Source of the DNA: Spirochaetota bacterium
GTDB taxonomy: Bacteria > Spirochaetota > B62-G9
Length of the DNA: 32,454 nucleotides
NCBI GenBank assembly: GCA_003645695.1
Contig: QNBN01000003.1
Span: 1-32,454, forward strand
Direction of reading: 5' to 3'
The stretch's first letter is position 1; each line of letters starts with the position of its first letter. Below are positions 25,820-31,553 of the stretch, piece by piece. The translations under genes were made by a program, and so were the position numbers. Under the pieces are notes generated by a model, which was not told the DNA's origin, did no database searches, and saw nothing but the letters and a program-made list of their open reading frames with translations.

Positions 25820-25870
25820 TTTTCCCCTCAAAATAGATAAAATATTTTTAAGATTGATATATTAATATAT

Positions 25871-26036
25871 GGTTTTATTCATTAAAATTATGGTTTTTTG
25901 TACCAGAATTTATGATTAATTATAATACCAAAATATTCATGGGTATTAAAATGATATTTAAATCTAATTTTTTATTGATATAAAATGAATAGGCAAACCT
26001 AGTCATTTATCATGATTGAAAGTGTACTTGCCTATT
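25871..26036 (+). repeat. 166-bp promoter/leader repeat, copy 1
   Basis: This segment matches 27558-27723 without gaps over 166 bases with 13 mismatches by my count (about 92%). It begins GGTTTTATTCATTAAAATTA, contains a promoter, and ends in an inverted repeat: AAATGAATAGGCAA (25983-25996) against TTGCCTATTCATTT (26028-26041). It fills most of the murG to adenosine-kinase gap and points toward the kinase gene at 26160. It lacks transposase genes, and I see no target duplications. Confidence 0.9.
25898..25926 (+). promoter_or_regulatory. Promoter in repeat copy 1
   Basis: TTGTAC (25898-25903), a 17-base spacer and a perfect TATAAT (25921-25926). TACCA occurs at the -35 edge and again just after the -10 box, which could be an operator. 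AATACC (25924-25929) and GGTATT (25942-25947) can also pair at the start of the transcript. Confidence 0.7.
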
Positions 26037-27469: not shown

Positions 27470-27557
27470 AATTTTCTCCTTTATGTTTTCGCCTTTTATT
27501 TATATTTTAATATAACCAGTATCAATTTCAATTTATATTTTTGCTTCTGGTAATTAT

Positions 27558-27723
27558 GGTTTTATTCATTAAAATTACAGTTTTTTGTACCAGAATTTGT
27601 GATTAATTAGAATAACAAAATATTCATGGGTATTTAAATGATATTTAAACCTAATTTTTTATAGGTATAAAACGAATAGGCAAACCTAGCCTTTTATTAT
27701 GATTGAAAGTGTACTTGCCTATT
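27558..27723 (+). repeat. 166-bp promoter/leader repeat, copy 2
   Basis: This is the direct-orientation partner of 25871-26036. The terminal hairpin arms are shorter here: AATAGGCAA (27675-27683) with TTGCCTATT (27715-27723). The copy lies between the SDR gene and the DUF39 gene, ending 41 bases before the latter's ATG. The match to copy 1 stops sharply at CCTATT, and the sequences on each side are unrelated. Confidence 0.9.
27585..27613 (+). promoter_or_regulatory. Promoter in repeat copy 2
   Basis: TTGTAC (27585-27590), a 17-base spacer and TAGAAT (27608-27613). The -10 box has one change from copy 1, and the following TACCA is TAACA here, so this copy may be weaker or differently controlled. 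Confidence 0.6.
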
Positions 27724-27764
27724 TACAGTTTTGGTATTTTTCTAAAATTAAAGAGGGCTCACCT

Positions 27765-28970
27765 ATGCAAAGAAGTATTGAAGAGATAAATGAAAAAATA
27801 AAAAAGAATAAAGCGATTGTTTTTACTGCAGAAGAAATTATACCCTATGTTGAAGAAGTCGGTTATAAAAAGGCAGCCGAGAGAGTTGATGTAGTCACTA
27901 CAGGGACATTCGGGCCTATGTGTTCATCGGGTGCATTCTTAAATTTGGGGCATACTACCCCGAGGATGAAAATACAAAGGGCATGGCTTAATGGTGTTTT
28001 AGCATATGGGGGATTAGCGGCAGTAGACCTGTTTATAGGTGCCACTGAAATACCAGATGATGACCCTGCTAACAGGATACATCCCGGTTTATTTAAATAT
28101 GGGGGAGGACATGTAATTGAGGATCTGATCTCGGGTAAGGATATATTTCTGAAAGCTGTCTCATACGGAACAGACTGCTACCCCAGGAAAGAACTTGAAA
28201 CCTATATAAATATACGGGATTTAAACCAGGCTTATATTTATAATCCAAGAAATTGCTATCAGAACTATAATGTAGCAGTAAACCTTTCCAAAAAGGTTAT
28301 ATATACATACCTTGGAGTTTTGCAACCAAACCTTGGGAATGCAAACTTCTCCTCTGCAGGACAACTGAGCCCGCTCTTGAATGATCCATATTACAGAACC
28401 ATAGGAATTGGAACAAAAATTTTCTTAGGAGGTGCACAGGGTTTTGTTTCATGGGAGGGAACTCAGCACAACCCAACCGCGCCGAGAGGTGAAAATGGAG
28501 TTCCAAAAGAAGGTGCTGGCACAATAGCAGTTACAGGTGATATGAAAAAGATGAATGCAAGGTACATTCGCGGTGTCTCTGTTATGGGATATGGTGCAAG
28601 CATGGCTGTAGGAATCGGTATACCAATACCTATTATCGATGAAGATATGATTCGTTTTGTTACGGTAAAAGATGAAGATATTCTCGCTCCAGTTGTAGAT
28701 TACTCAATGGCATATCCAAGCAATAAGATAAAAGTATTGAGCTATGTAAATTACAGAGATCTACGTAGCGGTGAGGTAGAGATAAAGGGGAAAAAGGTTC
28801 CGACTGCTTCTCTTTCAAGCTACCCGATAGCGAGAGAAATTGCAAACACATTAAAAACCTGGATCCTTAAAGGCGAGTTCTTGCTAACTGAAAAAGTTGC
28901 ATCATTGCCAGGAGTTGAATCCGGTCAGGGTTTTTATCCTTTAAAAATAAGATCTGAAAGGATAAAGTGA
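27765..28970 (+). CDS. DUF39/HcyBio homocysteine biosynthesis protein
   Basis: The 401-residue product belongs to the DUF39 family (COG1900), which together with a NIL-ferredoxin is required in methanogens to make homocysteine from aspartate semialdehyde and a sulfur source. Family segments include VDVVTTGTFGPMCSSGAFLNLGH with the conserved Cys53, LFIGATEIPDDDP, NPRNCYQNYNVAVN, FLGGAQGFVSWEGTQHNP and MGYGASMAVGIGIPIPI. Cys53 is the likely sulfur carrier by family comparison. The ATG at 27765 has AGAGGG before it. An in-frame ATG at 27699 lies inside the repeat hairpin and has no ribosome site. The partner gene begins one base after its stop. Confidence 0.9.
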   Translation: MQRSIEEINEKIKKNKAIVFTAEEIIPYVEEVGYKKAAERVDVVTTGTFGPMCSSGAFLNLGHTTPRMKIQRAWLNGVLAYGGLAAVDLFIGATEIPDDDPANRIHPGLFKYGGGHVIEDLISGKDIFLKAVSYGTDCYPRKELETYINIRDLNQAYIYNPRNCYQNYNVAVNLSKKVIYTYLGVLQPNLGNANFSSAGQLSPLLNDPYYRTIGIGTKIFLGGAQGFVSWEGTQHNPTAPRGENGVPKEGAGTIAVTGDMKKMNARYIRGVSVMGYGASMAVGIGIPIPIIDEDMIRFVTVKDEDILAPVVDYSMAYPSNKIKVLSYVNYRDLRSGEVEIKGKKVPTASLSSYPIAREIANTLKTWILKGEFLLTEKVASLPGVESGQGFYPLKIRSERIK

Positions 28971-28971
28971 T

Positions 28972-29391
28972 ATGACAAAAACTCAATCAAGAAATATACT
29001 GCTTCATTACCCTAAAAATCTTACAGACAAACCAATAATCTCAAATCTTATTAAGAATTATGATCTCACAGTGAACATCTCAAAAGCGAGAATTGATCAG
29101 GATGAAGAAGGGACAATGATAATTGAAATATCGGGAACATCAGAAAACATTAACGATGGGCTAAAGTATCTCAGGGAAATTGGTGTTACCTACAAACCAA
29201 TATCCAAGGTTGTTAATTGGAATCAAGATAAATGTACCCATTGTAGCGCATGTACTGTTGTATGTCCCGTTGGAGCGCTTTATATTCCTGATAGAAACAA
29301 CATGTTGATAACCTTTGACGAGAAAAAATGTATAGCCTGTGGATTATGCGTACCGGCTTGTCCTTATAGAGCAATAACCATATCCGAATAG
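28972..29391 (+). CDS. NIL-domain ferredoxin, partner of the DUF39 protein
   Basis: The 139-residue product has an N-terminal NIL domain (about 5-78; LHYPKNLTDKPIISNLIK...ISGTSENINDGLKYLREIGV) and two 4Fe-4S motifs: C88-x2-C91-x2-C94-x3-C98-P and C120-x2-C123-x2-C126-x3-C130-P. NIL domains otherwise occur at the C-terminus of methionine ABC transporter ATPases. In methanogens this protein works with the DUF39 protein in homocysteine synthesis, presumably as electron donor. It is immediately downstream of that gene and clearly in the same operon. Confidence 0.93.
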   Translation: MTKTQSRNILLHYPKNLTDKPIISNLIKNYDLTVNISKARIDQDEEGTMIIEISGTSENINDGLKYLREIGVTYKPISKVVNWNQDKCTHCSACTVVCPVGALYIPDRNNMLITFDEKKCIACGLCVPACPYRAITISE

Positions 29392-29404: not shown

Positions 29405-29590
29405 TTATTCTATCGATTGATTCTGAAAATCCAGTGCCATGTGTAATTCTTCTTGAGTAACAATACTGAGATTAACAAGAATTTCCCCAAGCTTTTGACC
29501 AGTTGATTTTTGAATCTCAAGTGCCTCATTTATATCATCAATATCGATAAGGCCAGCTTCAATTAGAACTTCCCCCAGCTTTTTCCCCAA
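29405..29590 (-). CDS. Stand-alone MshEN (type II secretion ATPase N-terminal) domain protein
   Basis: The 61-residue product consists of one MshEN/T2SSE-N domain. It has two 24-residue motifs of the form K-L-G-x2-L-x3-[GS]...L-x2-Q (KLGEVLIEAG...EIQ and KLGEILVNLS...DFQ) separated by the canonical five-residue spacer KSTGQ. In MshE this unit binds cyclic di-GMP. Here the leading Arg of each motif is Lys, and the Gly of the second motif is Ser, so binding is uncertain. No ATPase domain follows. I prefer the TTG at 29590, ten bases after AGGAGG; a TTG at 29599 is too close to it. It lies downstream of repeat copy 3. Confidence 0.75.
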   Translation of the reverse strand: MGKKLGEVLIEAGLIDIDDINEALEIQKSTGQKLGEILVNLSIVTQEELHMALDFQNQSIE

Positions 29591-29650
29591 TAAAATCAAA
29601 CCTCCTTTTACATTAATCTCTAAATAGTTTTATTCATTAAAACAATCTTC

Positions 29651-29790
29651 CAATCAAAATAAAGAACTATATTTGTCTATTCGTTTTATGCCTATAAAAA
29701 AGTTATATACAAGAATTGCCCAATATTTTGGCCTTCTAATTAAAACTTTACATGCTGGTATTATACATATCAAAGAAAGCTGGTACAAAA
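29651..29790 (-). repeat. Diverged inverted copy 3 of the promoter/leader repeat
   Basis: On the minus strand the blocks of copies 1 and 2 recur in order: TTTTGTACCAG (29790-29780), TATAATACCA, CCAAAATATT, TTTTTTATAGGCATAAAACG, AATAGACAAA and GATTGGAAG. An insertion of about 25 bases follows the -10 box. A GTTTTATTCATTAAAA stretch resembling the left end of copies 1 and 2 lies at 29628-29642, on the other side. The repeat points toward the MshEN gene. Confidence 0.7.
29760..29788 (-). promoter_or_regulatory. Promoter in repeat copy 3
   Basis: On the minus strand TTGTAC (29788-29783), exactly 17 bases, and TATAAT (29765-29760) followed by ACCA. The spacer sequence has drifted but both boxes, their spacing and the TACCA pair are retained. 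Confidence 0.65.
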
Positions 29791-29864: not shown

Positions 29865-31454
29865 CTATATATTGACATTCTCTATATTCTCTATATTTAA
29901 CATCTTCATTATTTTGTTTTTTGCCTCCAGATAGCTTATAAAAGCAATAATCTCGCTGGGAGTTTTACATTTTAAAAGCCATTCAAAATGCTCCATTCTG
30001 GAAAAACTTCTGGTTAATGAATCAATCATTTTGTTGTATATTTCACCAAGATATTCAGGTGCTAAAAAAGCAAATATTATATGAACAGGCCTTGGATCAT
30101 CCGGCTTGATCTCTACACCCTCTGGCTTAAGCCCCAACATCGGCACGATATCATCAACAAAATCGCCAAAGGCACTGAAGAAGGCAATATTTTTTCCAAT
30201 AGGTGTTGTTACTATTTCTCCACTTTCCATAAGTTTCTTTTTAGCATTTTCTATATCTGTCACCCTCTCATGTGCAGCAGCTATCAACTCTTCTACTACT
30301 TCTTCTTTATTTTCTCCCTTTAACCTGGGAACAACGAGGTCTTTATGAAACATAAGGGAAGCAGTATATGGCAAGGGTTTGAGAAAATCCCATCCAAAAG
30401 CTTTTTCCCCCTCCATTTTTATTCCTCTTTTTTCTCTATACTCAGGGATAGTTATCATTGGAGGTCGCTCTATCCCCCATACTTTCATCTTTTCTATAGA
30501 GTACTCATTTTTTACACCGGTAAGCACCTGAAGGGAGTCAGATATATCCTGAAAAATCTCTATGCGACCCATATCATCTGCCCTCTGTAGAAGTATTTTG
30601 AGGATTCTATATGCCATAGACCTCAGGGCTTCAATATTCTGATTTCGATGGATTCTAACATCAAGATCGCACTGCCCAATAACATCAAGGCCATATATAC
30701 GTAGAATATCAATTAAATGACCGGTTTCTACACCATACCCTGTAAAAAATGGAAGATGTTCGAGAAGTTCCCTCCTACCTGCGTATTCTCCTGAAAGAGG
30801 TTGAGCAATCCCGGTAAGCTCAGGAAATAGTAGATTAAAGAATGGTCTGACAACAAGCTCTGTAACCCTACCCCCTCCTGTATAATGTAGCTCTCCTTTT
30901 ATTCTGATAGGCCTTTTGTAGAATGCTTTAACATATTTAAGATGATTAAACTCAAGGAGAGGTCCAATCAAACCCAGGGCAAATCTTGGATGTATATTGG
31001 TTATATCCGCATCAATCCAGCAAATTATATCACCCTTTAATACATAGAGGCTTTTCCAGAGATTTTCTCCTTTACCTCTGTAAGAACGATACTGAGGTAG
31101 TATATCTGAAGAGTAGTAAAAATCCGCCCCAGCCTCTCGTGCAACCTTTTCGGTGTTATCGGTTGAGCCTGAATCTATGACAACAATCTCATCGAGTAGC
31201 GGATACTTTTTCATTAAATATCGATTCATTACAGTTATTTCTTTTCCAACTGTTTTTTCTTCATTGAGGGTAGGAAAACATAGACTTATCGTAACCCCTT
31301 CCTCTTTTTTCATTCTTAAAAGTTTTTTAACATCAGCGTACCTCGAGTGATGGAATGTATTTCTTTCTATCCATTTCTTAATGTATGATGGTTGTTCAAT
31401 TCCATACTGTAACATCTCCTTATCTTTCTTCTCCACATCATACAATGTTGCCAT
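29865..31454 (-). CDS. gpgS: Glucosyl-3-phosphoglycerate synthase (GT81) fused to an EIIA-like domain
   Basis: The 529-residue protein has a GT-A glycosyltransferase domain (about 50-330): LCFPTLNEEKTVGKEI, VVIDSGSTDNTEKVA (D94), the metal-binding D148-A-D150, RIKGELHYTGGGRVTEL, PLSGEYAGRRELLEHLPFFTGYGVETGHLIDI and DVRIHRNQ. This is the GpgS family, which joins a nucleotide-activated glucose (or mannose) to 3-phosphoglycerate, the first step to the osmolyte glucosylglycerate. The extra C-terminal part (about 376-510) follows the PTS EIIA (fructose/PtsN type) pattern: NKEEVVEELIAAA, the block matching GIAIPHAR read as NIAFFSAF, then PVHIIFAFLAP and CKTPSEIIAFI. The active His is replaced by S427. 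The start at 31454 follows GGAGG. Confidence 0.88.
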   Translation of the reverse strand: MATLYDVEKKDKEMLQYGIEQPSYIKKWIERNTFHHSRYADVKKLLRMKKEEGVTISLCFPTLNEEKTVGKEITVMNRYLMKKYPLLDEIVVIDSGSTDNTEKVAREAGADFYYSSDILPQYRSYRGKGENLWKSLYVLKGDIICWIDADITNIHPRFALGLIGPLLEFNHLKYVKAFYKRPIRIKGELHYTGGGRVTELVVRPFFNLLFPELTGIAQPLSGEYAGRRELLEHLPFFTGYGVETGHLIDILRIYGLDVIGQCDLDVRIHRNQNIEALRSMAYRILKILLQRADDMGRIEIFQDISDSLQVLTGVKNEYSIEKMKVWGIERPPMITIPEYREKRGIKMEGEKAFGWDFLKPLPYTASLMFHKDLVVPRLKGENKEEVVEELIAAAHERVTDIENAKKKLMESGEIVTTPIGKNIAFFSAFGDFVDDIVPMLGLKPEGVEIKPDDPRPVHIIFAFLAPEYLGEIYNKMIDSLTRSFSRMEHFEWLLKCKTPSEIIAFISYLEAKNKIMKMLNIENIENVNI

Positions 31455-31553
31455 ATTTTTCCTCCTGCATCTATTATATAGGATAAACCAAATCCAAAAT
31501 TTTCGCAAGATAATTGTAATATTTTCCGATTGGATATTTACCTAAAACTTTAC

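Follow-up and report, generated by a model that had tools for sequence, protein, structure and literature searches.

A free-standing MshEN_N protein from a Spirochaetota bacterium, a candidate small receiver of cyclic di-GMP

Most accounts of MshEN treat it as a sensing domain joined to a pilus or secretion motor or to some other signalling domain, and it has many partner domains besides the secretion and pilus ATPases (Wang et al. 2016, PMC5013675). In Vibrio cholerae MshE (PDB 5HTL; NF053729), the MshEN_N half has two 24-residue motifs with a 5-residue spacer between them, forms a four-helix bundle and is joined to MshEN_C and to a pilus ATPase. Each guanine of c-di-GMP is held by the backbone amides of Gly11 and Gly40, by Leu triangles and by stacking of the first-position Arg, and Gln32 and Gln61 contact the ribose and phosphate (PMC5013675). 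The isolated MshEN_N (residues 1-62), without any fused domain, binds c-di-GMP with a KD of 0.35 uM (PMC5013675). The GSPII-B domain of Thermus thermophilus PilF (PDB 8PDK, 8PFA), which has Lys and Leu at position 1, binds it with a KD of 6 nM; the consensus start has been widened to (R/K/L)LG, and K or L can raise the affinity (PMC11731258). Binding was lost in XpsE of Xcc (PMC5013675).

The protein described here lies in a window of 32,454 nucleotides, the whole stretch of DNA that was analysed. It resembles the MshEN_N of MshE in its two motifs and spacer, its predicted four-helix bundle and its Gly, Gln and Leu contacts. Unlike MshE, it is complete at 61 aa; each of its motifs begins with Lys, and Ser replaces the second turn Gly. 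As in GSPII-B, which is among its closest folds in the PDB, the first Arg is replaced (K/L there, K/K here). GSPII-B, however, is part of a three-domain N-terminus of an ATPase, and the C-terminal subdomain that helps binding there is absent here.

The gene, its domain and its surroundings

The features of the locus are as follows.

27699..28970, plus strand: HcyBio (homocysteine biosynthesis) protein (PF01837, 521 bits)
28972..29391, plus strand: NIL-domain ferredoxin, convergent neighbour (PF09383, Fer4)
29405..29590, minus strand: free MshEN_N coding sequence, 61 aa, TTG start (ORF list, NF053729, orthologues and selection, fold)
29423..29494, minus strand: c-di-GMP-binding motif 2, residues 33-56, KLGEILVNLSIVTQEELHMALDFQ (read off the sequence; NF053729 match)
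29495..29509, minus strand: five-residue spacer KSTGQ (read off the sequence; seven relatives all share its K, S and Q)
29510..29581, minus strand: c-di-GMP-binding motif 1, residues 4-27, KLGEVLIEAGLIDIDDINEALEIQ (read off the sequence, in agreement with the NF053729 match at 29423-29581)
29601..29609, minus strand: Shine-Dalgarno AAAAGGAGG, 10 nt 5' of the TTG start (sequence)
29642..29760 (about), minus strand: diverged third copy of a repeat, between the GpgS-EIIA and MshEN_N genes (local alignment score 100, shuffled maximum 61)
29865..31508, minus strand: glucosyl-3-phosphoglycerate synthase with a C-terminal PTS EIIA-type domain, GpgS-EIIA (PRK13915 at 373.6 bits in NCBIfam, PF00359, synteny)

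The initial annotation had described a 61-residue protein made up of two 24-residue motifs and a five-residue spacer, and the open reading frame on the minus strand bears this out. It has 61 codons and a stop within a stop-to-stop frame of 74 aa, and only three N-terminal and five C-terminal residues lie outside the motifs and spacer. AAAGGAGG ends 10 nt upstream of the TTG start. The 61-aa protein has neither an MshEN_C subdomain nor an ATPase domain and therefore does not qualify as an assembly ATPase of the MshE, PilB or GspE kind.

The protein matched NCBIfam NF053729 ('c-di-GMP_motif, MshE-related') over 53 of 53 positions with 66.9 bits (cut-off 38, E = 9.8e-19); with this score and a full-length match, the resemblance of the motifs is not due to chance. 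The 53 residues that characterize MshEN_N, two motifs of 24 and a spacer of five, are all present. Pfam PF05157, which bears the name MshEN, gave no match above its curated cut-off for the 61-aa protein. In the GspE of the same genome the PF05157 match starts just past motif 2, in the half that is missing from the 61-aa protein, and the silence of PF05157 is therefore no evidence against an MshEN_N identity. A Pfam match to FumaraseC_C (E 5e-4), under its cut-off, was put down to helix-turn similarity. The second-best NCBIfam match was of the NfrB/PRK15489 type. In those glycosyltransferases MshEN lies within the enzyme in a cis fusion, whereas here it is separate, beside a GT2-type enzyme, the predicted glucosyl-3-phosphoglycerate synthase.

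An AlphaFold model of the protein, calculated from an alignment of seven relatives, has four helices and a mean pLDDT of 90.9, in keeping with the four-helix bundle of MshEN_N. When the PDB was searched with this model using Foldseek, the top 16 matches were all MshEN, GSPII or PilB N-domains. The c-di-GMP-bound PilF-GSPIIB and MshE chains gave TM-scores to the query of 0.76-0.89, a best rmsd of 0.9-1.0 Å and a Foldseek probability of 1.00; the shortness of the query kept all Foldseek E-values above 0.001. A sequence profile search found PilF at 1.4e-15 and MshE at 2.1e-7. Judged by its residues and modelled fold, the window protein is an MshEN_N half-domain, and every feature tested fits except the second turn Gly and the change of Leu25 to Ile.

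A shared regulatory repeat had been proposed upstream of the gene. A repeat does exist there, and two other copies, at 25868-26036 and 27553-27723 (both on the plus strand), are 92% identical. The repeat of about 170 nt is, however, dispersed: 47 matched pieces occur at about 40 places in the genome, mostly intergenic and several at contig ends. Among the complete cases examined, about half have the same orientation as the downstream gene and some copies lie between convergent genes. A promoter scan of the region was at chance level (4 found, 3.5 expected), and Rfam at the gathering threshold gave no RNA element near the gene. In other genomes of the order the repeat had no match in G001-G004 and only end pieces in G005-G007; the end pieces are multicopy in G005. 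The repeat looks MITE-like, a mobile or amplified intergenic element and not the signal of a regulon, though single copies might contain a promoter. The listed start of the HcyBio reading frame (27699-27723) is inside the repeat, and its true start is probably a later ATG (MQRSIEE...).

Ligand contacts and predicted binding

The replacement of Arg by Lys in both motifs and of one conserved Gly by Ser, as originally noted, was confirmed in the sequence; the Ser is at the turn Gly of motif 2 (Gly47 in V. cholerae numbering), and the other turn glycine, Gly18, is retained. A further change had been overlooked: motif 1 has Ile in place of the first Leu (Leu25) of its LxxxLxxQ. The rest of the V. 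cholerae contact set (Gly11/Gly40, Gln32/Gln61 and Leu10/29/39/54/58) is retained. Gly6/Gly35 and Gln27/Gln56, which correspond to G11/G40 and Q32/Q61, are invariant in seven relatives, and so are both Leu of LxxxLxxQ in motif 2. Lys at position 1 of both motifs fits the extended R/K/L consensus and not the original Arg form. In 60 aligned free copies both contact Gly are present in all 60 and Gln32 in 59, and Arg opens motif 1 in 10 of them and motif 2 in one; Lys is therefore normal for free MshEN proteins. The description of these ligand residues as altered thus does not hold as a sign of damage for the most part, because K at position 1 is allowed (PMC11731258) and none of the Gly and Gln contacts has been lost.

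The turn Gly of motif 2 is retained in 55 of the 60 free copies, and four of the five exceptions belong to the window subfamily, where four of six aligned members have a residue other than Gly and the position is G, D, E or S. According to the legend of Fig. 3 in PMC5013675, replacing this Gly of V. cholerae MshE with Leu or Ile weakens binding, so a lower affinity of the window protein is possible. Within the subfamily, position 1 of motif 1 is unconstrained (K, L, Q, P, A, T), and affinity may therefore differ among its members. From the conserved contact residues and the published work on the isolated domain, we infer that the window protein binds c-di-GMP.

The window protein is probably an intact single-domain MshEN_N protein that serves as a small, diffusible c-di-GMP receiver and docks on a partner. 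A diffusible receiver was one of three options offered by the initial annotation, and it is the best and most likely of them, supported by the motif, the family, the predicted fold and the signature of selection. The four-helix bundle would take one c-di-GMP between the two 24-residue motifs, and gain or loss of the ligand would alter how its surface docks on the partner protein. Single-domain PilZ adaptors such as MapZ, which are likewise small and free, receive c-di-GMP and act in trans on their partners. Signalling by the window protein may also be in trans, and not in cis to a fused ATPase; the analogy is conceptual only, since fold and binding motif are unrelated.

Alternatively, the protein might be an interaction module that keeps the fold and for which c-di-GMP binding is lost or irrelevant. 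The Ser, Asp or Glu at the turn Gly and the free position 1 in the window subfamily would agree with this, and XpsE is a precedent (PMC5013675). However, XpsE lost G11, G40, several Leu and Gln61, all retained in the window protein, and both Gln contacts are invariant in the window subfamily. We consider a ligand-independent role unlikely.

Free MshEN_N genes in Spirochaetota

Free MshEN_N genes are common in Spirochaetota. The NF053729 cut-off was exceeded in 91 of 149 genomes of the phylum, and among the best 150 matches 59 came from reading frames no longer than 125 aa and 50 from frames the size of an ATPase (430-620 aa). It had been stated that MshEN is normally fused to secretion or pilus ATPases; the domain does occur there but is not confined to them, as the partners reported by Wang et al. 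and the free copies in this phylum indicate.

The neighbours of 59 small MshEN genes were surveyed at the loci examined. In 20 genomes, glpK was directly upstream and on the same strand of a free MshEN_N gene of about 65 residues. Three genomes picked by GlpK sequence alone (G169, G185 and G200) had the same pair, giving 23 genomes in total (L114, L115, L116, L118, L119, L121, L187, L188, L191, L193, L196, L197, L205-L208, L210, L212, L215, L219 and L229-L231); the GlpK identity of L116 was confirmed by TIGR01311. This subfamily has Leu at both first positions, and its Gly and Gln contacts are invariant in 20 aligned members. In close pairs pN/pS is 0.02, with diverged synonymous sites and a nearly unchanged protein. 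Three free genes of the glpK type (L190, L194 and L221) have no adjoining glpK, so that the association, though strong, has exceptions. In more distant families of the phylum, the GlpK loci that were examined had no small MshEN gene.

A second subfamily lies 5' of a 138-aa PaaI-type thioesterase-like gene in nine genomes (identity judged by eye; no NCBIfam match at 1e-10) and adjoins a divergent cytochrome-like gene in eleven (loci of the subfamily: L111, L124, L201, L202, L209, L214, L217, L220 and L223). Its members end in an acidic tail (DEWLDQDE in those displayed), and the final Gln is Tyr or Phe.

In Borrelia burgdorferi the glp operon depends on c-di-GMP, and glpK is followed by bb0242, a small hypothetical gene (PMC3128128). 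This gene was considered as a free MshEN and the link rejected: no MshEN match was found 3' of glpK in five presumed Borreliaceae genomes, which are small and have glpK some 245-254 kb into the main contig. Our literature search found no paper joining MshEN with glycerol kinase and, by title and abstract, none on stand-alone, single-domain or small MshEN proteins; the supplementary tables of PMC5013675, outside this search, may list free copies. Apart from such supplements, the literature searched seems to say little about a free MshEN_N architecture linked to metabolic genes.

These gene neighbourhoods bear on whether the window protein is instead a sink or decoy, a small and abundant protein that would buffer the free c-di-GMP pool and compete with other receptors, with no dedicated partner. 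Its full motif and small size would suit such a role, and motif starts with K or L can mean very tight binding (PMC11731258). However, the conserved genomic addresses of several free subfamilies and the invariant KS..Q spacer suggest a specific partner, and buffering needs neither. Since free subfamilies are tied to particular genes, a receiver with a dedicated partner is favoured, by analogy only since the window gene is from another subfamily, and a sink is rather improbable.

Conservation of the locus and possible partners

The window is contig C3 of a genome of 2.72 Mb in 261 contigs that is 88% complete. Contamination by this contig is unlikely, because its glycosyltransferase is 86% identical to the counterpart at the same locus in the same-family genome G001. 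GGDEF was matched three times in the genome, once strongly, and PilZ six times, and a c-di-GMP network is therefore likely. The free protein is the best match to the c-di-GMP motif found in this incomplete genome (65.8 bits, versus 54.9 for GspE), and GspE (C150, L179 3839-5614) is the only other protein above the NF053729 cut-off.

The N-domain of GspE has Ser in place of Gln32 and Asn in place of Gly47, and the N-terminus of PilB (C248, L180 2357-4111) shows no MshEN motif. The free protein, with the best motif, might thus act in trans on these T2SS and T4P assembly ATPases and supply the c-di-GMP site that they lack. Its gene is, however, not near either ATPase operon and no relative sits there, which makes this role very improbable.

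In four further genera of the order, a free orthologue occupies this same locus (L105, L107, L109 and L106 in G001, G002, G004 and G006). These orthologues have similar lengths, and all four have GGAG or GGAGG upstream; the free relatives have nearly identical ends and 51-65% identity to the window protein. Among the orthologues pN/pS is 0.25-0.28, and synonymous differences have reached or nearly reached saturation. The matching ends, Shine-Dalgarno sites and pN/pS of these syntenic orthologues exclude a gene truncated only in this strain. A degraded leftover, that is, a truncated and non-functional N-terminal domain of a secretion or pilus ATPase as had once been suggested, would agree with the usual position of MshEN_N at the N-terminus of such ATPases and with its absence from the locus in three of eight genomes, but is scarcely credible given syntenic orthologues under purifying selection in five genera, an identity of 42% to the GspE N-domain of its own genome versus 51-65% to its free relatives, and no ATPase remnant beside the gene among the reading frames and Pfam matches of the window.

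The shared neighbourhood comprises an adenosine-specific kinase, HcyBio, the NIL-ferredoxin, the mini-MshEN and GpgS-EIIA, in varying orientation. The ferredoxin also adjoins in L105, L107 and L109 (in L109 inferred from an alternative reading frame); the G006 locus lacks HcyBio and the ferredoxin, and the L105 contig ends after the ferredoxin. GpgS-EIIA was matched in all eight genomes of the order, and in three of them (G003, G005 and G007) no mini-MshEN adjoins it. With these three genomes and the flipped orientations, the free MshEN_N gene is accessory. Further related free copies occur at unrelated loci (L108 4904-5107 in G002 and L110 1985-2200 in G004), the L110 copy without a clear start codon or Shine-Dalgarno at the aligned position.

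For a diffusible receiver that docks on a partner, GpgS-EIIA may be conjectured as that partner, since it is the most consistent neighbour, immediately adjacent in all five genomes with the mini-MshEN at the locus. Against this, the relative orientation of the two genes changes between families, and the three genomes named above have GpgS-EIIA without the mini-MshEN. By eye, the usual active-site His of GpgS-EIIA (IAIPH) is His in five of eight sequences, Ser in the window, Asn in L105 and Asp in L176.

Our analysis has two consequences for annotation. The 'altered' first-position residues of MshEN motifs should not count as decay, and a scan with Pfam PF05157 misses free MshEN_N proteins. A wider and tentative possibility, which we hold to be doubtful, is that free MshEN_N proteins are exchangeable c-di-GMP-sensing subunits of Spirochaetota metabolic enzymes (glycerol kinase, the thioesterase-like protein and GpgS-EIIA) and set central-metabolic activity directly. 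The glpK pair makes the subunit idea directly testable with two purified proteins. The free copies, which are conserved, intact and linked to particular metabolic genes, suggest that separate small subunits may carry the c-di-GMP signal to enzymes of glycerol, glycerate and acyl metabolism.
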